Position numbers and translations under genes: made by a program
Part shown: piece by piece, positions 1 to 11,785 of the stretch
Numbering within the stretch: position 1 is the stretch's first letter
Layout: each line of letters opens with the position of its first letter
Source of the DNA: Ustilago trichophora
Taxonomy: Eukaryota; Basidiomycota; Ustilaginomycetes; Ustilaginales; Ustilaginaceae
Assembly: GCA_900323505.1 (NCBI GenBank)
Contig: OOIN01000024.1
Span: 1-64,000, forward strand
Reading direction: 5' to 3'
Length of the DNA: 64,000 nt
The notes under the pieces: model-generated
The model's database searches: none
Told to the model about the DNA's origin: nothing
Seen by the model: only the letters and a program-made list of their open reading frames with translations

Positions 1-162
1 TAACCCTAACCCTAACCCTAACCCTAACCCTAACCCTAACCCTAACCCTAACCCTAACCCTAACCCTAACCCTAACCCTAACCCTAACCCTAACCCTAAC
101 CCTAACCCTAACCCTAACCCTAACCCTAACCCTAACCCTAACCCTAACCCCAACCCTAACCC
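1..162. repeat. Telomere repeat array (CCCTAA/TTAGGG)n
   Basis: The first ~162 bases are an almost perfect head-to-tail CCCTAA array, C-rich strand 5' to 3' at the left edge, as expected for a left chromosome end. One variant unit (CCCCAA, TTGGGG on the other strand) lies near 147-152. The array passes without spacer into unique sequence at about 163-170 (CCCTGACCTG). TTAGGG is the usual telomere unit of basidiomycetes. The array is short, so the contig may not reach the physical end. Confidence 0.98.
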
Positions 163-798
163 TGACCTGAAGGTATCACAGAGACCAGAGTGGCCATTCT
201 TGATGATGGGGAGAACAAACTTGCGGGTGAACTCTTTGAACCAGATGCAGAACTCCGCCACAGCTTGCCTGCCTTCCTCCCTGCCTGGCTGCTGAGTCTC
301 TTCCAATAGAGTCAAGCTGACCATCATCTTGTCGTACCAGATGCCAAAGTGGTAGTGTGGAAAGTGCTGCTGCTGATCCACTGTCTGCCGAGTGTCTGCC
401 TTGTGTTTCTTGCACTTGGCTGTCTCCATGACCTTGCGGAACAAGGTGGCACCTTTGCTATAGCTCTTGGTCATGCTGGAGGCAGCAGACTCAGTGGCCG
501 GACAGAAGCGCTGGAGGAAGACATTCCCGGTCTTGCTGTCCTGGAGGCTGATGTTGTGGGTGTAGACTGTGTTCTTGCAGTCATCAAAAGAGGTGATGGC
601 CTGGCCGGTGATGATGGGCAAGGTCCAAGAGCACTTTGCCTGCCGATCCTTCTCCATTACCTTGTACTGTTTGTCAAGGGTGTACGTCTTGGCATTGATG
701 GACGCAAGGCTGTACTGCAGCCTCTTGATGCGCTTCTGATCTGCTTGAGAAGTGCCGCCAGGTACAGGTATGTATGTCATTGTGGTGTGATGTACCAT
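163..798 (-). CDS. Unrecognised subtelomeric protein, 3' end cut off by the telomere
   Basis: Read on the minus strand, an ATG at 798 (or in-frame ATG at 780) opens a frame with no stop down to position 1. About 210 residues of ordinary-looking sequence are followed by Leu-Gly repeats where the frame reads TTA GGG. The unique part is rich in Lys and Gln, has scattered Cys (motifs DKQYKVMEKDRQAKCSW, QRFCPATES, ETAKCKKHKAD) and ends KFVLPIIKNGHSGLC before the junction. I recognise no family. The simplest reading is a larger gene broken here and healed by telomere addition, which would make this a truncated relic. It could also be expressed with a Leu-Gly tail, or be an accidental open frame. 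The 36-bp repeats lie just upstream of its start. Confidence 0.5.
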
Positions 799-812
799 GG
801 GAAGTGTGATCC

Positions 813-1064
813 AACTCAAAGAGACGTGTCCAGTTTGGATTTTGATCCATCTCTTTGAGACATGTCCAGTTTGGATTTTGATCCATCTCTTTGAGACGTG
901 TCCAGTTTGGATTTTGATCCGTCTCTTTGAGACGGACTGATTTTGAATTTTCATCCATCTCTTTGAGACTGACTGATTCTTGGAATTTGCGCGTCTCTTT
1001 GAGATGGACCAATTTCTGAAATTTGCGCGTCTCTTTGAGATGGACTCATTCAACCTCATTGACG
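813..1064. repeat. 36-bp minisatellite, seven units
   Basis: Units begin at 813, 849, 885, 921, 957, 993 and 1029 at an exact 36-bp spacing. Each starts with a core like (A/G)TCTCTTTGAGA(C/T) followed by a 23-bp arm; the first arms contain GTCCAGTTTGGATTTTG and the later ones diverge. The core arms CTC/GAG form a small inverted repeat, and in the first unit the centre is flipped (CTCAAAGAG). Since 36 is a multiple of 3, the minus strand stays open as a 12-residue repeat (LKEMDQNPNWT-like) across most of the array. It lies between the truncated gene and the 3' end of the helicase gene. Confidence 0.9.
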
Positions 1065-1150
1065 CGTCAGGCCTCCACTTTGTCTGCATTTTCACAGACT
1101 CTGGAAATGCAATTAATGATTTATTTTGAGAAACATGCAAAGTCTTCTAT

Positions 1151-4100
1151 CTACATAGCCGCTGCTTCTACAGCCGCTGCAAACATGGCAAATGCCAGAA
1201 GCATACTCTCACCTTTGTAGGTCACGGCTGTACCTAGCTCACCTTGTACCACTACCGCATGTGGGTCCATCTGATCCAAGCCAATCAACCGCAGCACATT
1301 GGCAGTGTGCTCTCTGCATCTGAGCACTGCCGCAACTACGGGCAGCACAATGTCAGCATACCTGCGTGAGCATGCTGTAGAATTGGTTGAGCTGGTGTTG
1401 GCGCAAATGTTGATGGGAACCAGACATGCGTAACAAGCAATGTGCTTTGCTTTCTGCATGCGGCGCTTGAGGCCGCCAATGTAGGTTGCATTGATGCGTG
1501 GCTCTGATTGTGGCAACTTGTCCTTGATTTGCGGCCAGCAGTTGCAGTTGCTGAAAGAGTGTCGGATTCCATGTTGTCCAGAGCATGTGTGCTGGTTGCG
1601 GAAGAGGTAACACAAAGAGCACACACCGGCAAGGCTCTGCAGTAGCGATCTGCTGCTTGATGTGTCAATGTCAATGTGCACAGGTGGATGTGCCGGTGAT
1701 GGACTTAGGCTGAATGCAAATGGCGGAGGCGTAAAACTGAGAACCGGCAATGCTGGCTGAAGCTGGTTTTGAGCAGTGGAGGATAATATCTGGTTTGGCG
1801 CTCCTCTGCTTGCTGAGTGCTGATGGTTCAGGTCTAGAGCTGCCGTAAAACCTTGATGCCGCCGCTGACGTGGTGTAGGTGAATCCAAGGCCGTGGTGCT
1901 GACTTGCAACCGCCTACTGCTGCTGTTTGCAGCTTGGAGTTGACCAGCAGTCTGGGTCTTGCCATTCTGCTGCCGCTCACGCTTGTCAGACTCTGGCGGT
2001 GACTCCAAGCCAATGATCTTCTTTGGCGGTGTGACTGGTCCTTCCACACGCTGCTGGCAGAGGTCGCACAGCGCAAAGTCTGGCTGGCTGAGGCAAGTCA
2101 CCGGCATTCCGTCCAGATAGCGTGAGATGGCCAGACGCCGGCAAGTACGCTCCTCTATGTAGAGCTGCACCTGTGCTTCACGTGTTTGGACTCTGGTGGC
2201 CAACAGCACCGCTGATGCTCCACTGCCACTACGTCCAGCGCGTCCTGACTCTTGCACGTAACTGACCATGTCCCATGTATCACCGCAATGGACCACCAGA
2301 CTGACATGTTGCGGATTGATGCCTGTGCCGATAGCTGTTGTTCCAACAATGACGCGTTTGCCAGTGTTGGTCTCTGTGGCAGAACACCGCAACCATGTTG
2401 AAACCGTTCTCTGCTTCTGCTCCTCTGGCATGTCTGCGATCACGCAAGTGCAATTGAGATCCTCCGCTGTGGTTTGTGCTGCAGTGGTGGACTTGCAGAA
2501 GATCATCACTGCACCGGCAGGGTGAGCTTCAAGGAGACGCTTGATTTGGAATGGCATTTCCACACTTGATGTAAGTTGCTGGACCTTGTAGGAGATGTTT
2601 TTGCGGTTGGTGGCCGCCCTGATCATGCCAGTACCATCTTGCGGGAGACAGAGTGTGGTCTTGAAGGTGGGAACCAGAGTTGGTGGCAGCGTAGCCGTAA
2701 GGAAGTACTGCTGCACCCGCACAGCAGAGATGAGTGCCTTGATCTTCTCCATTGCCGGACGGAAGGTGTTTTGAGTTACGCAGACATGGCACTCATCAAA
2801 GAAGATGGCTGCCAACCGCTTCTGCTGATCCAACTCTTGCGCCCAGTTGGCAAATGCTTGACTGTAGCAGTTCTCTGCTGCAACAAAGACCAGCTGACTG
2901 CCCTCTACTCTGTCTGCACTCCGGTAGCCTGTCCACTTGCTTGCCACAATTCCAACCCACTGACACTGCTCCATCAGATCATCTGTGAGTGCAATGAATG
3001 GCACCACCACAATAATGACAGAGGCTGGCGGCAGCCAATGCAGCGGTGCCATGAAAAGTGCAGACTTGCCGGACCCAGTGGCCATGACAATGATCAGTGG
3101 TGTCTCCTTGGCATAGATGGCATTGAGCGCATAGGCCTGCTCCAGTGTCTTGGTGCGGTGGCTGCCGGTCACCTTGAAGAGTGCATTGCTGACTGGTTCT
3201 GCTAGCACAGCAGAGCGTGAAATGGGGGCAGCAGGCACCGCACTTGTAGCGCTTGGTGGAGCAACTTCAATTGGATGCTCCAGCCTTTGCTTGACACACC
3301 GCATGTCCTCCTGCAAAGCATCCAGCTGCCGCTTCAGTGAAGATACTGCCTTGCAGTCATCTCCTGCTGCCTTTCCTGCCATGAGGTGGTCATATGGCTT
3401 GACGTCCTCTTCAAAGCGGGATGGCATACCCCAGAATGCATGCCACCGCTCTGACACTTCCAACATGACATCCATGCTCTCTTGCGTGAGCTGATGCAGC
3501 ATGCTTGCATCCAGGCCATAGTGCTGCTCTGCAGTCCGTGTTGAATGTCCAGCTTGAAGATCGTGAGCGCTGTCCAACACCTCTTCTGCAGTCATGGACC
3601 TCGGACGGATGAGCTTGCGGTCAATGCTCACTGCCAGTTGCCGCCAAGTGCGCATGTTGAGGCCAGCCGTGATAGAGCTGATGTGCTCCTGGCAGAGTGC
3701 TTGCAGCATCTTGGTGACGGCATTTGTCTCCCATGCATTGCCGTGATGGTCCACCAAGAGCATAGAGCTGGCCGCACGGGGCTGCAGCACTGCATTATGT
3801 AGGAGATGGACAAACGGCACCACCTGAGCTACGTAAAAGACCACCATGCATCCCACTGGGTATGGCAGGAAGCGTGGAATCACCTTTTGACGTCCAGTGC
3901 CTTTCTTGCTGGGCAGAGCGGTGAAGACACTGCCATCATGCACAAAGAGGTTGCGTGGACCAACAAGCGTGTTGGTGTGCTGCAATTGGAGCAGCTCTGT
4001 ACCTCTTGCAGGCAGACCGCTACCAAGCTCAATGAGCACCGCAAGCAGCTTGGTGAATTCCTTGTGCATGCTGAAGTACGCATTGGCAGCATCTGCATCG

Positions 4101-6140
4101 AACTCCAACTCATCAGAGTATGGATCCATGAGGGGTTGCGCAGCAGGTACGTTACCAGCAGCAGCACGGCAGAGAACACTGCTGATGCTCTGCAGCTCCG
4201 GAGAAGCGGCCACAAAGCTGAAGTCTGGTTGCATGTTGCGGTGATCATCCAGAATGTGCTTCAGGTTGAGCGCAAGTGATGCATCCTCTGGCAAAAGGCA
4301 GAGCTGACGTAGCAAAGCTTCTGCCCGCTTTTGCGCACCATGCATCAGAGCTTGGAGACGGTCCACTTGGATGGTCTCTGTTCCAAACTTGACGCTCTTG
4401 AGATCTTGCTGCCAGGAAAAGTGGAAGTTGGTGCCATCATCTTGCGCAAGTACTGTGCCATACCGGTGAAGGGATTGTAGGTATGAGCTGGCGGAGCTGC
4501 TGGTGCTGTACAGATAGCGCTTCATCTGTAGATCAACCTCGGCAGCAATCTCCTCAGCAGAGCGCTCAATGAGCACACCATCTTCTGGATCCAACAGCCA
4601 CTGCCAGAGCACTGCACGGCAGCAGAACTCCAAGCTGGCAATGATGGACGTAGCGGCATTGACGGGAATGGGAGTGCCATCTGCGCTGACGCAGAGGTGG
4701 AGGAACAGCCGTACCAAAGCAAGCTTGTCATTCTCACCATACACCTCTGGCTGTTGCGTGACCAAGAGGTGAGAGAGTTGGAGGAGGAGCGGCACTGCCT
4801 TGCTTGCCAGATCTTCATCAGTGAGCGGATCAATGTCTGCATCTGCACCGTAGTAAAGATCATGCAGATCTTGCAGTACAGAGTCCAGGTGTGCGCTGAG
4901 ACCAAGATGCTCAGTCTGGTCACTGTCACCGTAATAACCAAAAGAGACACCGTCAAAGACCGCATGGATAAGCAGAGCAAGTAAAAAGGCCCACATGTCC
5001 GCACGTTTCTTGACTGTTGGTAGGCTGAGGTTGTACGGCTGGCTTGGTTCAGGACTGTAGGCACGGAAAGTCTGTTGCACCTGCCTGCCAGTCTTGAGGA
5101 AAGCCATCATCCATGTTGCGGCTGCTTGCTGTGTCATGACCAATACCCAATGGACAAAGTCTATATGAGCACCAGGCCACACCTTTTTTGACTTGCTGAG
5201 TGCGCCGATGGCCACAATAGGCTTGCCAGCCCAGTACGCATGCCAACCCAGCTGCTTGGCCCAAGGACCAATGTTGCCGCTGGCAGATTCAGGCTGAATG
5301 CCTGGCTTGAGCAGGTCTGCTTCACGGAGGCAATCTTCATTCTTCTTGAGGAAGGCATCCACCTTTGTCTTGATATTGGCGCTGATGGTGCTGGCATCCA
5401 GAGCGGTGGTGAGAATGGCAGGAGGCGGTGTGGGATCCAGATCTTGATTGCGGACGTGAAGGTAGCGGATCTTCTTGCCGCACTTGTGCAACTTCTGCAT
5501 GGGAACAGGATGGGTGTATGATGCTCTGCCTTTAGCATCAGGATGCCCACGCAGATGCTCGTAGAAAGCAGACTTGGCTTGGACGGCATAGGAGCACAAG
5601 TTGCAGCGGTAGCCTTGGAAGAGCTCACCCAGCTCAGGAATCATGCGCTCTGGCAGAAGATCCTTGTTGATGCAGACCGTGCCAGGAGACGGTACATCCA
5701 GTTCATCAAGGAGGCTACGCAGCATATCCTTGGCAGACCCAACCAGCGGCTTCTTGTGGACCTTCTTGATGTGAGCCGTGACGTGCTTGAAGTCTGGGAT
5801 GAGCGGCAATTGAGGACAACAGCTGTCCAGGGTGCAGAGCAGGATGCAGGGATGGTCCACCAAGCGTAAGTTGAAGCGTGCCAGCTGAGCGGTGTGCTGA
5901 GGATCCACTGGAGTGGAAATGGTGGTTTCTTGATTTGCGGCTTGGTTGGCAGCAGGGAGAGCGTGACTGAATTCAAAAAATGCAAATAGTGATGTCAGCT
6001 GCTGATCATTGATGATGTGTGGTGATGATTGCCCAAACATACCTGTCCGTATCACTGACTGCGTCCATTGTGTTGATGCCTGCATCAACAAGTTCAGCAG
6101 CAAGTATGCTGTCATCAGGATGGAAAGATTGCTGAGACAT
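1151..6140 (-). CDS. Telomere-linked helicase: OrsD-like zinc domain, tyrosine-recombinase-like core and RecQ-type helicase
   Basis: Proposed exons run 6140-6043 and 5966-1151 with a 76-bp GT-AG intron (donor GTATGT, acceptor TTCAG), giving about 1637 residues. This model gives a polar N-terminus starting MSQQSFHPDD; the unspliced frame has only a late or non-ATG start. Residues ~70-185 show paired C..C...H..H motifs (CTLDSCC, HIKKVH, CNLCSYAV, HLRGH) like the fungal OrsD/DUF3505 domain. Residues ~680-850 look like a tyrosine recombinase: GLPARGTELLQL (box I), MRTWRQLAVS, then AGHSTRTAEQHYG (H...Y). Residues ~990-1290 are an SF2/RecQ helicase: Walker A ATGSGKS, DECH box, LTATLPP, and motif VI QESGRAGR. 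A Cys-rich tail follows. It resembles the RecQ-like genes known at Ustilago chromosome ends. Helicase identity is certain; the recombinase part is inferred from motifs. Confidence 0.85.
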
Positions 6141-8134
6141 GGTTGAAGAATTTGCTGGCGGTGGATAAAAGTGGTAGAGTACGGTAGAGAGAAGCTGGAA
6201 TGGATTGTTGGATTGATGAGCAATGACGGTCAGCAACGGTCAGAAAGGCACAGTATATATGCTTCAGAGGAGACAAGCAGCGCACATAGCAAGCACAGTC
6301 AGATGTACACTGTCAAGGATTCCAGCAAGCGTAACGGGTTACAGCAACAGCCACTTGAAGCACACAATGTGTCCAAGAGGGAAACGTACAAAGGTAAGAT
6401 GGTTTCACTTGCGCTCACACTCACGCAGACACACACCGTAAAGCAATCAAGACAAGAAAGGATAGTGCAGAGCTGTGAGCGGTGTGGAAAATTTTGTTTC
6501 AGTGACGGACAGACAAAGCTGTGTGGTGAGCAACAAGCAGACAAAGATGTGTGGTGTGTGACGGACAACAGACAACGGACAACAGACAAAGGTGTACAGC
6601 GTGTGAAGGACAGACAAGCATGTGGGTGCATGGCGGACAAAGGACAAGTACGTCAAAGTCAAGCTGTGAGAAAATCTGTCTGTCAAACACAAAGCTCACT
6701 CAAAGCAAAGGTCCGCACTTGGGAGCATCTGAGTTAGCTTTGTTGGTTCCAGCCGTGAGAGTCATTGACTGTTGTCTCAACATTGTCCTTCACACGCTTC
6801 CAGACAAAGGAGCCATGACTTGACGGACCAGCTGCTGTTCAGAGTGCTGTTGAAGGATGTACACGCTGCCAAGATGAAATTACTGAAATTTGACGCGTCT
6901 GTCAGTCAGTCAGCGCAGACGCGTCTGTCAGTCAGTCAGCGCAGAGTCAAATTGTGCGCGGTGCAATTAGAATCTGTCTACTCATGCCCAGACACATCAC
7001 GCTCCTTGCTCCAAGGACACATTGCGCTCTCAATTTTGAGGCCAGCATTCTGATCAGATTTTTGGCAGACATATTTTTTGACATTGTCCGTCAGTGTTGA
7101 CATTTGAGCCTTGTCTGTCTGCTGCAGTCCATGGGTACACATTGGTCACCGTCACACATCTGATCACTGCATATGTCTGCAGCACGGGTCACTTCCTCAA
7201 TCATGTCCGCCAGTCAGTCACGTCTGTCACTTCACCAAGTCAGTCAGTCAGTCATGTCTGTCACTCATGCTGTCTGCCAGTCAGTGAAGTGACGGACAGC
7301 TCAGTGAGTCTGCTCCATGAGTAGGCCGCTCAGCCAAAAAAGTTGGATTGGTCTGTCAGGCACTAGAGAAGTGTGGGTGAGCGTGTCTGTCACGCTAGCA
7401 ATTTCCCTGAATTTTGACGCGTCCGTCACCCACCTGTCCGCTGCCCAGCCAAGGAAAAAGAATTTTCCGTTGCGGCACTGCACCAGTGTTTTTTGACGCG
7501 TCCCTCAGGCTGACGGAGCGTGGTCAGGTTGGCCATTTTGGCGGGACGGACTGGTGCTTCTCCTGCGGCTGGCGCACCGCAGCCTAGGGCTAGGGTGGTG
7601 GTGGTGGTGGTGAGATGCAGCGTTGAGCGCACATGCAACCACGCTCACCAAAAGAAATTTCGGCTTTCGGTATACACATGGGCGCTCAGTAGTGAGGTTT
7701 TGGCCGTCCTTTGTCTCACTCAGAATTGCCTCGGCAAGCTCGCTTGTTGCAGGTTTTATGCACATGTGCATGAGCTTGCATATGCAAGTTGAGTCGAGCT
7801 CAATTCGTTGTTTGTCTCACCACAAAATGATAGGAGACTTGTGTCGATCTCTCTCAACCTTTCCGTCGAGCTCACTTCTGTTCGTTTGTACGTAGTTTCT
7901 CTCAATGTAACACACTTTCATGATTTTTATTACAAAGCATGGGTATTTGAGACAAACAAAGCGTGGTCGTCGTCTCATCCTCCATAACTTCTCTTCTCCG
8001 TGATGGTGCATACTCGGCTGGCCCTTTGCATTGATGACACTTCCACACAGGCAAGGCTCCTGGCCTTCACATCCGACTCATACTATCTGACTGGAAAAGG
8101 GTACTACGGGCGCGTCGCTATTACATGAAATAGC
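6141..8134. other. Subtelomeric non-coding region rich in short repeats
   Basis: No convincing gene is present; reading frames here are short, repeat-derived or lack ATG starts. The region holds degenerate GACAGACAAAG/TGTGTGG-type repeats (about 6505-6660), a perfect 26-bp tandem duplication (6892-6943), (CAGT)n runs near 7205-7260, an imperfect inverted repeat (about 7218-7233 against 7285-7299) and a (GTG)n run near 7598-7612. Four TGACGCGTC words lie at 6892, 6918, 7416 and 7495. Part of this must be the helicase promoter and 5' leader. Confidence 0.7.
6892..6943. repeat. 26-bp perfect tandem duplication containing ACGCGT
   Basis: Two identical adjacent copies (6892-6917 and 6918-6943) begin GACGCGTCTG and continue into a CAGT run ending AGCGCA. 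Each carries an ACGCGT hexamer, the core of the MluI cell-cycle box bound by MBF in yeasts. Regulatory meaning is an inference only. Confidence 0.85.
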
Positions 8135-11100
8135 TTAGCTAGATGTTCTGCCACTTCTGCTTTGAGCTTCGATGCTGATCGTGTCGGGTATACACTCCGT
8201 CATGTTCAAATGTCCTGCCTTGACCACAGCGGCTCGGTCGCTGTATCTTGCCAAATGCGAGCCGGCCTCACGAATGTACTCGGTCATGTCATAGCCGTGA
8301 TCGTCGTCCCCTGCTGTGGGGAGCCCAAAGAGGATTGGGATCTTGAGTTTAGCAGAGTCATCGAGTTCCTTCACAAAGGGAAAGGTGGCCGAAGAGTTGC
8401 CTCTGATCACAAGGCGATGGACGTCCTGGAAAGGGTGATTCTCGTGAACTTTGTGGCTCAACGAGACCTCTGCCTGAGGTGCGCGGATGTCGAAAAACAG
8501 TTCCAGTGAGGTAGTCTTGTCACCCGTCACCAACCCAGGAAGCGAGGGGCCGATGGTCGTGGGCGGCTGAGGTCTTGCTGCCCAATTTTTTATTTGAATG
8601 GCAACATACGAGAGCTTGCTTGCCAGGAAAGGCTCGTCTCCGATGGGAGGAGAGTCGGAGTCATGTTCATACACGGGGAAAAGAATGTCCCAACCGCACT
8701 GATTGGAGACTCCTCGCATAGCGGCGTGGCGCATCCATAATTCGCCGAGGATGTTTCGATTGATGCTTGTGCCTGTTTGGACTTGATTGTGCAGCTCAGC
8801 CGTGTGTTTAAAATTGACCCACTGGCGTGAGCACCACAGCCAGCATGGGTCATCAGAGGCCTCATGTTGCCGTTCGGCTCCGACAAGACATGCCAGCCAT
8901 TCGCTCAACTTGATCAGGCCCGTGATGCCTTCGTAGCTCGACCGCCTGAGCACCAGCGACTGATGCCGACGGTTGGCTGCCAAGTCAGCAGCGATGCTGC
9001 AGAGGATGCGCACCCCCTCTTTGCCCTGTAGGCCAACGTTGAGTCCGATCGACGAGTGAGCAGATCCGATCATGTCGATCGCCATCGACCATTTCTCCAA
9101 GACACGCTCTCGAGTACCGCAGCGGAACGACCAAGTTGCGGCTAGGCTCAGTGGAGGTTCGCTGGGGATGGTAGTGGTGATCACGTTGCTGTCCTGACAA
9201 AAGTCACAAAGGAAGCGCAAATGGTGCGAAACTTGTCCACGGAGGTAAGCAAGCCACGACTGATCTCTAGCTAGGATCGAGTGCTCTAGGGCTACTCGTT
9301 GGCTGACCAGGGCGAGGATGTTCTGAAGTGCCTTCGAGTCGGACTTGTGATCCTTGTTGCCAGAGATGCTCGCTGGCCATTCCCATGTGAAGGGTTGGAC
9401 GAGCTTTGCAAAGATGTAGCGTGGTTGGAGGATGTGCTCGGGATGTGTGTAGGGCTTGTCGTTCCACAGAGGGCGTCCAATCCTGGTGATGAGCTTGTTG
9501 ACATCTCGGAGCGTGAAGTTTCCATCGGCAATTTGCTGCCGGATGAAATTGCTGTCCTCTGGGGTGATGTAGACGTCAAGTGGCATGTCAACAAATGGCT
9601 GAGTGAGGCGTGAGATCTCTTTCTTGGTGCGGTGGGTCGAGTCTCTTGCTTCACGTCCGATTATGGGGGCGATACGGCTGTTAGTGTCGACGAGGAGCAG
9701 CCAAGTTCGGTCTGGTTTGGCCGCATGCCAAACCCTTCGTATATGAGGCAGCATCCTTAAAAAAGGCATACACTCATCGAAAGCGAGGAAGAAAAAGGTC
9801 CTTTCCTTGATCGATGACGGTACGAGGCTCTCGAGCTGCAGAAGCGCTGGGCGGAGGTGTTTGTCGAGGGGAACAAGATACTCGCGAGATGTTGCAGTAG
9901 GTGTGTACTCGGCGAGGTATTTTTCAGCTTGGTCGCAGATGCGCTTGAGCATGTCCGCGCGTGTGGTTGGGCCAGCAAGCTTGCCAACGAAGTCCCTGTG
10001 TTGAGAGGGGAAACGTCGTTTCAAAGCGGCTATAGCGGAGGGAGTGGGGTTAGCAAAGTCTTGGCCCCGAACCTTACTGTGAGGACAGATTGGATGCTGC
10101 GGCTGGAACTCAAGTTGTGCAAGAAAGTCAGGCTTGACGTGGATTGCTGTGGCAAGGGCGTGGATGGCCGAGTTCCAGCACTGAGCGACCTGATGCGTAT
10201 CGTTGGTGGCGGACGGCGATGAATTGGTGGGGTGGGTGGCGGCAGGGTCTCCAAGGGATGGAGATAGGGGAGGGCAGCCCGAGATGAGCATGATCTGGCT
10301 CAAGAGGCTATGTAGCTCGTTGCAGTAGGCAGCGAGAAAAAAAACGACGTAGACGTGAACATGATTCTGCTCGAGGATGTCCAGCCCAAGAGGAACGCCA
10401 CCGACATCAACGAAATACTTTTCATAGCACTTGTTGAAGTACTCGAAAACCTTGGTGTCTTGTGGCGGAAACGAGACTGCCACCTTTGGCTCTGAGACTG
10501 CCACCACCGTTGACTCTGGGCGCATGCAAATCAACATGCCGGGATGGGAAGCGCTGAGTGTGACGCAGAGCTTGGTCTTGCCGAAACCAGAGGATTGGAT
10601 GATAGGGAGTACCTTGGCATAGTACATGTCTTGTTCCTCGGACGAAGTTGAGGGTGAGGTGGAGCTGGGCACAGTCGGAGCCGTATTGGAAGCTGCCAGA
10701 CGTCGTTCAAGAGGCGAGGAGGAGGGTGTGGACGTTGAGGCTGGAAGTAAGTCAGCGTCTTGCATTTCCACGTCGTCTGATTCTTCTGCTTGACGGCGTT
10801 CTGCTTGACGGCGGAGTGCAGCAGCATCTCGATGACGCTTATTACCACGTTCGTGACTCTCGAGGTGTGCCACAAGTAGTTCGACAGCGGGACCCCTAAA
10901 GGTGGCGGCGAACGACTGGCGTACTTCTGAATCTGCCTCGTCCTTGTTCAAGATCTCGGGTTCGTTGTGGCTTGACTCAGAATCAGGCGGATCGAATAGA
11001 GCGTCGGAAAAAAGGATCAGCAGCTCGAAATTGTCGAGGGATTTGAGGTATTCAGAGAAGCCATCTTTGTGAGATGAGACGAGTTTACCGATTCGAAGCT

Positions 11101-11410
11101 CGGCCTCTTCAATAGTGATGGTCTGATGAACAATCTTGGCAACCAGGGGCGAGTCGAGGTTGGCGTCGGAGTTTTCTCGGATAAATTTGCAAAGATCGGC
11201 AAGGACTGGCAACATTGAGATGGATCTGAGATAGTGGACAAGATCCGGGGTCTTTTTTGACCATTTGCGAAGCACGTGCTTGATCTGATAGACCATAAGC
11301 TGGAAGTCGGACTCATCTGCAGAGCTATGCCAGTGCTTGAGGTGCTGGTAGAGATTGTCGTCATGATCATCGACGGGGTGATCGTGGTCATGTTCGTTGA
11401 CGCTGAACAT
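8135..11410 (-). CDS. Large P-loop NTPase with C-terminal PD-(D/E)XK-like nuclease domain, CRN-related
   Basis: The product is 1091 residues. The ATG at 11410 is the first after an in-frame stop. The N-terminus is His/Asp-rich and followed by a helical region; residues ~200-260 are low-complexity Ser/Pro/Thr. A Walker A-like motif SSGFGKTK lies at ~273-280, a Walker B FFFLAFDEC at ~541-548, and a sensor-like strand LLLVDTNS soon after. Near residues 905-942, CGWDILFPVYE followed by SYVAIQIKN fits the D...(E/Q)xK pattern of restriction-endonuclease-fold nucleases. This layout (NTPase plus nuclease) matches large uncharacterised protein families in agaric fungi and the NTPase-nuclease modules of Crinkler-type proteins. 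No signal peptide is visible, so secretion is not supported. It is the first gene inside the subtelomere. Function is inferred from motifs only. Confidence 0.7.
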   Translation of the reverse strand: MFSVNEHDHDHPVDDHDDNLYQHLKHWHSSADESDFQLMVYQIKHVLRKWSKKTPDLVHYLRSISMLPVLADLCKFIRENSDANLDSPLVAKIVHQTITIEEAELRIGKLVSSHKDGFSEYLKSLDNFELLILFSDALFDPPDSESSHNEPEILNKDEADSEVRQSFAATFRGPAVELLVAHLESHERGNKRHRDAAALRRQAERRQAEESDDVEMQDADLLPASTSTPSSSPLERRLAASNTAPTVPSSTSPSTSSEEQDMYYAKVLPIIQSSGFGKTKLCVTLSASHPGMLICMRPESTVVAVSEPKVAVSFPPQDTKVFEYFNKCYEKYFVDVGGVPLGLDILEQNHVHVYVVFFLAAYCNELHSLLSQIMLISGCPPLSPSLGDPAATHPTNSSPSATNDTHQVAQCWNSAIHALATAIHVKPDFLAQLEFQPQHPICPHSKVRGQDFANPTPSAIAALKRRFPSQHRDFVGKLAGPTTRADMLKRICDQAEKYLAEYTPTATSREYLVPLDKHLRPALLQLESLVPSSIKERTFFFLAFDECMPFLRMLPHIRRVWHAAKPDRTWLLLVDTNSRIAPIIGREARDSTHRTKKEISRLTQPFVDMPLDVYITPEDSNFIRQQIADGNFTLRDVNKLITRIGRPLWNDKPYTHPEHILQPRYIFAKLVQPFTWEWPASISGNKDHKSDSKALQNILALVSQRVALEHSILARDQSWLAYLRGQVSHHLRFLCDFCQDSNVITTTIPSEPPLSLAATWSFRCGTRERVLEKWSMAIDMIGSAHSSIGLNVGLQGKEGVRILCSIAADLAANRRHQSLVLRRSSYEGITGLIKLSEWLACLVGAERQHEASDDPCWLWCSRQWVNFKHTAELHNQVQTGTSINRNILGELWMRHAAMRGVSNQCGWDILFPVYEHDSDSPPIGDEPFLASKLSYVAIQIKNWAARPQPPTTIGPSLPGLVTGDKTTSLELFFDIRAPQAEVSLSHKVHENHPFQDVHRLVIRGNSSATFPFVKELDDSAKLKIPILFGLPTAGDDDHGYDMTEYIREAGSHLARYSDRAAVVKAGHLNMTECIPDTISIEAQSRSGRTSS

Positions 11411-11785
11411 GACGGACGTTGCCTCACCACCTTCATGCTGTTAGATATGGAAGTGATGAAGATGATGGTGGTGGTGGTGGTGGTGGCGGTGGATGGTGTG
11501 ACGAGAAAGGCGAGCAGCTGAGTGAATGCGTGCGTGCGTGAGTGCGTGGCACAGTAATTTTTCCGAGTTCCGAGTTTCCGAGACAAGCCTTACTTGGTGT
11601 TCGCACTCCGATGAGATTCAGCTCTCATGACATCTCTTGTGCGCAGAGAAAAAAACGGCATCCGACGCTTTCCTTTTCATCCTTCCAAGACGCCGCTCAA
11701 AGAGACCGACCGACACAGATCCCGAGATCCGATCCGAAGCTCACTCTTTTTCCGAAGAGAGAGAGAGACGCATCAGTCACCTGAA
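11411..11785. promoter_or_regulatory. Divergent promoter between the NTPase-nuclease gene and ATP11
   Basis: The 375-bp gap separates two divergent start codons. It contains a (GGT)n tract around 11466-11490 and purine-rich GAGA runs before the ATP11 start. No specific factor site was identified. Confidence 0.5.

Follow-up and report, generated by a model that had tools for sequence, protein, structure and literature searches.

A telomere-linked helicase of Ustilago trichophora with a predicted tyrosine-recombinase fold, in a probable mobile element that joins AGG sites by a fixed inner end and becomes the chromosome tip

In the assembled genome of the smut Ustilago trichophora (GCA_900323505.1; 38.8 Mb, 45 contigs), contig C23 (OOIN01000024.1) carries at its left end a telomere-linked helicase (TLH) gene, and in this work we describe this gene and the element to which it belongs. 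Our window is the first 64,000 nucleotides of that contig. It opens with a telomere repeat tract, (TAACCC)n, at positions 1..167 (+), made up of tandem repeats with 98% matches; a telomere tract was found at the contig end in all 19 terminal stretches fetched (L009, L016, L027, L031, L033, L035, L036, L041-L052). The TLH open reading frame (ORF), P0001, occupies 1151..6229 (-), has 1692 codons from stop to stop and lies about 1 kb from the tract. The ORF lies within what is probably a telomere-proximal mobile element, at 168..7594 (-), whose outer (left) part is cut by the telomere and whose inner end is exact.

The helicase part is the only one with a clear Pfam assignment in the window protein, PF00270 (DEAD, E 3.5e-14) covering the ATPase domain at residues 1030-1184 (2678..3142, -) and PF00271 (Helicase_C, E 1.3e-14) the C-terminal domain at residues 1229-1335 (2225..2545, -). 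Since the family profile, built from alignment A2 (80 rows, window sequence included), matches RecQ5 and BLM in the PDB at E 2e-69, the helicase is of the RecQ type; a RecQ-type helicase adjoining telomeres is what characterizes TLHs. Identity is 98% between the protein and UTRI_00931 of U. trichophora and, over the searched region, about 50-65% with homologues in other smuts; further homologues occur in Didymella, Cryomyces, Parastagonospora, Fusarium, Botrytis and Schizosaccharomyces octosporus. In the genome search, DEAD-box matches were often paired on two contigs with equal scores, which suggests two haplotypes or a hybrid. The OrsD-like zinc module of the original prediction, which had been made from the sequence alone, belongs to part of the family: at E up to 10, OrsD (PF12013) matched 18 of the 30 members scanned, with a best value of 3.5e-20. 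In the window's own protein it went undetected by Pfam, which gave in its place just a C2H2-type zinc finger below the cut-off at residues 205-238 (5516..5617, -; PF23075, E 0.018), in which CNLC...H...H is visible. In one predicted relative, P0023 of Fusarium oxysporum (2189 aa), TLH-like N-terminal parts flank a hAT transposase region on both sides, probably as a result of a nested insertion or of a gene-model merge.

N-terminal to the helicase, the motif order R...(H/R)xxR...H...Y of tyrosine recombinases (YRs) had been proposed, and it is indeed present. Our residue numbers refer to the stop-to-stop ORF and equal the earlier ones plus 55, so that R687, R808, H840 and Y849 are here R742, R863, H895 and Y904. 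The modelled region, residues 560-990 (3260..4552, -), has in its predicted structure the catalytic-domain fold of the YR/topoisomerase IB superfamily. The predicted fold is that of a tyrosine recombinase of the XerH/Cre type with a complete catalytic set, all on the minus strand and counted over the non-gap rows of A2: Arg I, R742 (4004..4006; 79/79), the beta-strand Lys, K776 (3902..3904; 80/80), Arg II, R863 (3641..3643; 76/79, the other three being His), H895 at the His/Arg III position (3545..3547; Arg in 57 and His in 22 of 79) and the nucleophile Tyr, Y904 (3518..3520; 79/79). Both Arg, the Lys and the Tyr are also invariant in a 12-row alignment of two smut sequences, Parastagonospora nodorum, S. 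octosporus and other relatives. Structural alignment and residues together are the basis of the YR assignment, and on both counts, the fold as predicted and the conservation of the four positions, the original prediction is borne out. Its reading of the first residue of HxxR as Arg holds for the window and fails family-wide, residue 860 being L in 36, H in 21, R in 14, Q in 4 and S in 3 of the A2 rows listed. That the domain would cleave and exchange DNA strands, through a 3'-phosphotyrosine as in this superfamily, is our inference.

A genome search with the window protein yielded 68 candidate places, of which 28 were scored, so that the copy numbers given here are a lower bound. All 28 scored TLH copies lie at contig ends and read toward the end. 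The full-length protein span was found in 22 of them, 21 without a stop, which confirms the ORF as real and open. Protein identity is 98-100% in 27 copies and 89% in the remaining one, on C35. In window coordinates, the DNA common to the copies runs from about 162 to 7594-7600 and, in the loci reaching there, is followed by different DNA. At this inner end stands a 13-base core, GCCTAGGGCTAGG, at 7582..7594 (+), about 1.35 kb upstream of the ORF, which reads away from it. Lying 1.2-1.6 kb upstream of the respective ORF, the exact 13-mer forms the inner end of 27 of the 28 copies, C35 included; the remaining copy (C19 right) reads GCCTAGGGCTAGAG in its place.

The core occurs at 73 sites genome-wide, against 0 and 1 for the reversed pattern. 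No more than 20 kb from a contig end are 67 of them (one on C22, a contig of only 27.9 kb), and their orientation is uniform, with 40 at left ends all + and 27 at right ends all -. The other six are one on C6 (L060), two on C15 and three inside C43; the C6 core was rejected as an element end on reading the site. The C43 cores (70625, 77479 and 79920) lie in both orientations inside a contig of 168,011 bases; possibly two ends were fused here, the element was inserted internally, or the assembly joined separate pieces. At one end of C1, three cores (806, 1512 and 2218) are spaced by exactly 706 bases, probably a tandem array of a truncated inner end. Three more TLH copies (C10, C12 and C43), found with the 51%-identical protein P0013, also have GCCTAGGGCTAGG upstream. 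Besides the window's terminus, type A, three other types were recognized (L051; L053 of C12; L054-L059 and others), and these keep TTTGGC(A/G)G 43-45 bases before the core, with a different sequence in between. The inner terminus resembles the telomere repeat, with two to three CTAGGG units (the third in L022, L026, L034 and L061); these units run opposite to the telomere repeats of the same chromosome end.

Forty-two junctions were read, a few of them being one place in overlapping loci, and they fall into 32 flank groups. Some flanks are common to at least two ends (C5/C30 right; C41/C30; and the five loci L056-L058, L062 and L063), so segmental copying occurs. For nine junctions, the flank was also readable in an unoccupied copy. 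At the window junction the flank, 7595..7685 (+), has unoccupied copies on C13 and C16, counted once, that read GCGGAGGG then TGGTGGTGG. At eight of the nine, AGG already stands in the unoccupied target exactly where the CTAGG of the element joins. The targets read (slash, junction) GGAGGG/T for the window junction on C23, GCAGGG/T and GCAGG/T for nested junctions at element positions 2516 and 4145, TTAGGGG/T for C2 right, GAAGG/C for C31 left, GCAGG/C for C4 right, CCAGGGG/C for C5/C30 right and ACAGG/C for the inner flank of C2 left, which has many copies, the one on C44 being that compared. The overlap at junctions is 1-6 bases. Given that AGG makes up 1.5-1.6% of the trinucleotides in the window interior, the probability of at least 8 of 9 is 5e-14. 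For the flanks of L020 and L022, second copies matched in part only.

The outer side is variable. In some copies a telomere-repeat cap lies within the element, at window positions 162, 1069, 2907, 3069, 3915 and 7158; in longer copies the cap lies further out, and the longest copy read, that of C22, spans about 14.2 kb from telomere tract to core. Nesting was found in three junction types, in which a new inner end sits on an older copy; the break in the latter is at 2516 or 4145, within the gene, or at 6946, upstream of it. On C28 (L034:1466-1501), an internal tract, (TAACCC)6, directly caps a truncated TLH copy that breaks off at window position 3436, and beyond it lie other DNA and then a second TLH subfamily.

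Our interpretation is that this is probably a mobile element encoding a YR-helicase, which uses its inner end to attach itself at AGG sites and so forms the tip of the chromosome. P0001 would be the mobility gene of this telomeric element, a protein likely to hold two engines, with an N-terminal zinc-finger/helical part, the YR and the C-terminal RecQ helicase. The recombinase would cut the inner terminus at CTAGG and exchange strands with an AGG in another chromosome. With the telomere as the element's outer end, a single crossover would swap or replace the whole tip, and the element would thereby become the new chromosome end. A gain in copy number needs copying too, which makes the RecQ helicase a plausible partner: by unwinding or copying the tip it may allow the donor to persist. 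The nested arrays could then result from successive rounds of erosion and re-capping. The view that these helicase genes are, or derive from, mobile elements targeting telomeres is supported as to mobility, given the fixed inner terminus, the many flanks, the AGG overlap and the single orientation; the target, in turn, is AGG in other DNA rather than telomere repeats, and a derivation from Cryptons in particular lies outside what our data support.

Some of our results weigh against this interpretation. At the ninth junction (C7 right, position 6946) only a G is common, the target having AGAG where the element has AGGG (CTAGGG/TCAAATT at the junction versus CAGAG/TCAAATT in the window). The unoccupied sites are paralogous copies and not alleles, and two further candidates proved unreadable. 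Beyond AGG, no flank-side half-site is evident at the junctions, unlike in classical YR sites, and the crossover region of YRs is usually longer than 3 bases. The additional terminus types (L053-L063) share the 13-mer by construction, because they were found with it, although their position, orientation and related upstream sequence do not follow from that. The copies read in the genome revealed neither an outer terminus nor a circular form nor an excision.

Other such points concern the protein. The His of HxxR is variable across the family. No YR family was present among the five Pfam matches of the window protein (E up to 10), among 25 of the 44 Pfam families listed for 30 full-length members (E up to 10) or among the four matched by 12 trimmed members; in the PDB the trimmed profile A5 had no match. 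The full profile A2 gave helicases only among the best 60 of 270 rows. Profile searches had been proposed as a check, and those against Pfam and the PDB gave no YR match in sequence; such negatives bear on sequence match, neither on fold nor on catalysis. Foldseek was weak, with a best E of 0.16 for the window model and of 0.19 for the P0040 model, in which unrelated rows appear from rank 3; against a viral library the best E was 5e-3, with several integrases within the first ten. Foldseek alone is insufficient to settle the fold.

Among the alternatives, the one that survives best, though we consider it unlikely, is that the element is a linear DNA whose inner end, (CTAGGG)n, is telomere-like and that it was captured at chromosome breaks by microhomology end joining, with the recombinase uninvolved in the joining. 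The likeness of the terminus to the telomere repeat, with its occasional third unit, would fit such a capture, and so would overlaps of only 1-6 bases and the capping of ends by every copy in one orientation. Capture of this kind, however, should produce varied microhomologies and trimmed ends, whereas 27 of the 28 copies, including the 89%-identical one of C35, end at the same 13-mer, and AGG stands at the same place in 8 of 9 targets. Somewhat more doubtful is the idea that the YR domain is real but domesticated by the host and only binds DNA, while TLHs, like the Y' elements of yeast, spread passively with the subtelomeres through homologous recombination or through break-induced replication. 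The flanks common to at least two ends, with the segmental copying that they imply, and the near identity of 27 of the 28 proteins are what passive spread would give. Homologous exchange nevertheless leaves unexplained both a single exact terminus next to 32 flank groups and the overlaps of 1-6 bases, and pairing of the Y' type through an internal telomere tract is impossible because the inner CTAGGG is inverted; moreover, the strong constraint on the full catalytic set argues against lost catalysis. Both passive exchange and microhomology capture explain the exact end and the recurrent AGG less well than site-specific joining by the recombinase does. That a helical nucleic-acid-binding domain resembles the YR fold by chance agrees with the lack of a sequence profile match and with the Foldseek values, but is strongly disfavoured and, in our estimate, very improbable.

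Additional ORFs lie in the outer part of the element. Between the TLH and the telomere, C22 has ORFs of 326, 360 and 499 codons, and the putative cargo ORFs located are L050:1925-2905 (+), L050:5134-6216 (-), C22:6390-7886 (-) and window 168-1146 (-). The last, at 168..1146 (-), is truncated, its longer version being the 499-codon ORF of C22; it contains 36-base tandem repeats at 807-1051 and has no meaningful Pfam match (DUF3297, E 0.91). Both versions resemble TET-like ORFs by eye only. The other two of the four located ORFs belong to the family of the 360-codon ORF, in which H260xD262 and R330 are invariant across the 15 rows of alignment A4. Against the PDB (E up to 10), its profile matched two distinct sequences, both named Tet-like dioxygenase (E 0.004 and 0.01), and weak Pfam matches of its members were to Tet_JBP in 2 of 15 (best E 0.047) and, in single members, to TauD (0.015), BrnA and DDE_Tnp_1. 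To judge from these profile matches and residues, the family likely consists of TET/JBP-like 2-oxoglutarate dioxygenases. One member, UTRI_02572, is two locus tags from a second TLH, UTRI_02570, on the same contig, so the pairing of TLH and TET-like gene recurs in a diverged element. A TET/JBP-like gene beside a telomeric helicase calls to mind the kinetoplastids, with their JBP2 and telomeric base J. Pfam scans of the window protein and of three other ORFs of the element gave no reverse transcriptase. On the chromosomal side, just inside the element junction, the window has an ORF of 1101 codons at 8135-11440 (-), without a Pfam match, and DNA related to it occurs on several other contigs.

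TLH genes at fungal chromosome ends have been known for more than two decades, and their role is still open. A recombinase domain and an exact element end make this role testable: is GCCTAGGGCTAGG cut, and do new tips arise at AGG? More tentatively, as a possibility to which we give less than even chances, TLHs across Dikarya could be the integrases of "tip transposons", which move as whole chromosome ends when the YR-RecQ protein joins a fixed site to AGG. If so, active site-specific recombination would account for telomerase-free telomere maintenance (survivors), for the turnover of subtelomeres and for the large number of TLH genes that still lack an explanation, and the TET/JBP-like dioxygenases would be cargo that might mark tips. 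A site-specific, DNA-only route would be added to the known ways of rebuilding chromosome ends, which would help to explain the fast-moving subtelomeric genes of fungi. Searches of the open-licence PMC literature showed no recombinase domain in TLHs; there, "telomere-linked helicase" was not co-mentioned with "crypton", nor "OrsD" with "tyrosine recombinase", and among the matches listed "tyrosine recombinase" and "telomere-linked" did not occur together.

Proteins of the same kind, in the same place, are UTASa/UTASb of Ustilago maydis, TLH of Magnaporthe and tlh1/tlh2 of fission yeast, all telomeric RecQ-like helicases, and the OrsD domain is found in many TLHs, as in this family. TLH genes at the ends of smut and other fungal chromosomes are already on record (PMC10532341, PMC4522978). 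The first describes the TLHs of U. maydis (PMC10532341), and in its excerpted text neither a recombinase domain nor an element with a fixed end is mentioned.

Cryptons are eukaryotic DNA transposons that encode a YR, and their short terminal direct repeats are the likely substrates of crossover, according to PMC3212892. The window element encodes a predicted YR as they do, and AGG is common to its inner terminus and the target; it differs in its fused RecQ helicase and in sitting at chromosome tips. GCR1_C, the Crypton domain of fungal CryptonF, is absent among the five Pfam matches of the window protein (E up to 10), and no Crypton-type domain is among the 25 of 44 families listed for other members. 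In Starships, the captain YR gene lies near one end and is transcribed away from it, and the short direct repeats, 2-12 bases long, derive from the target sequence (PMC12153272). The likeness here concerns one end only, where the ORF, about 1.35 kb from the terminus, reads away from it and the overlap is AGG; unlike Starships, the window element is shorter, ends in a telomere and belongs to a basidiomycete. DUF3435 (PF11917) is neither among the five Pfam matches of the window protein nor among those 25 of 44 families, and a genome search for it had no match, but its control was silent too, so that absence is not demonstrated.

Y' elements are telomeric, have a helicase gene and spread via internal telomere tracts in normal orientation; we know of no YR in them. 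They are named as telomeric helicase carriers in PMC4522978, where telomeric Penelope-like elements are also described. In contrast to Y', the inner tract of the window element is inverted, with two to three units, and its overlap is 1-6 bases. HeT-A/TART, MoTeR and telomeric Penelope elements attach by one end, are variably truncated on the outer side and form head-to-tail arrays at chromosome ends. The window element has the same pattern of attachment, truncation and arrays, but those are retroelements. DNA elements encoding a YR, such as Cryptons and Starships, are known as a kind; a fusion of YR and RecQ helicase, carried by an element whose outer end is the telomere, is, to our knowledge, new.

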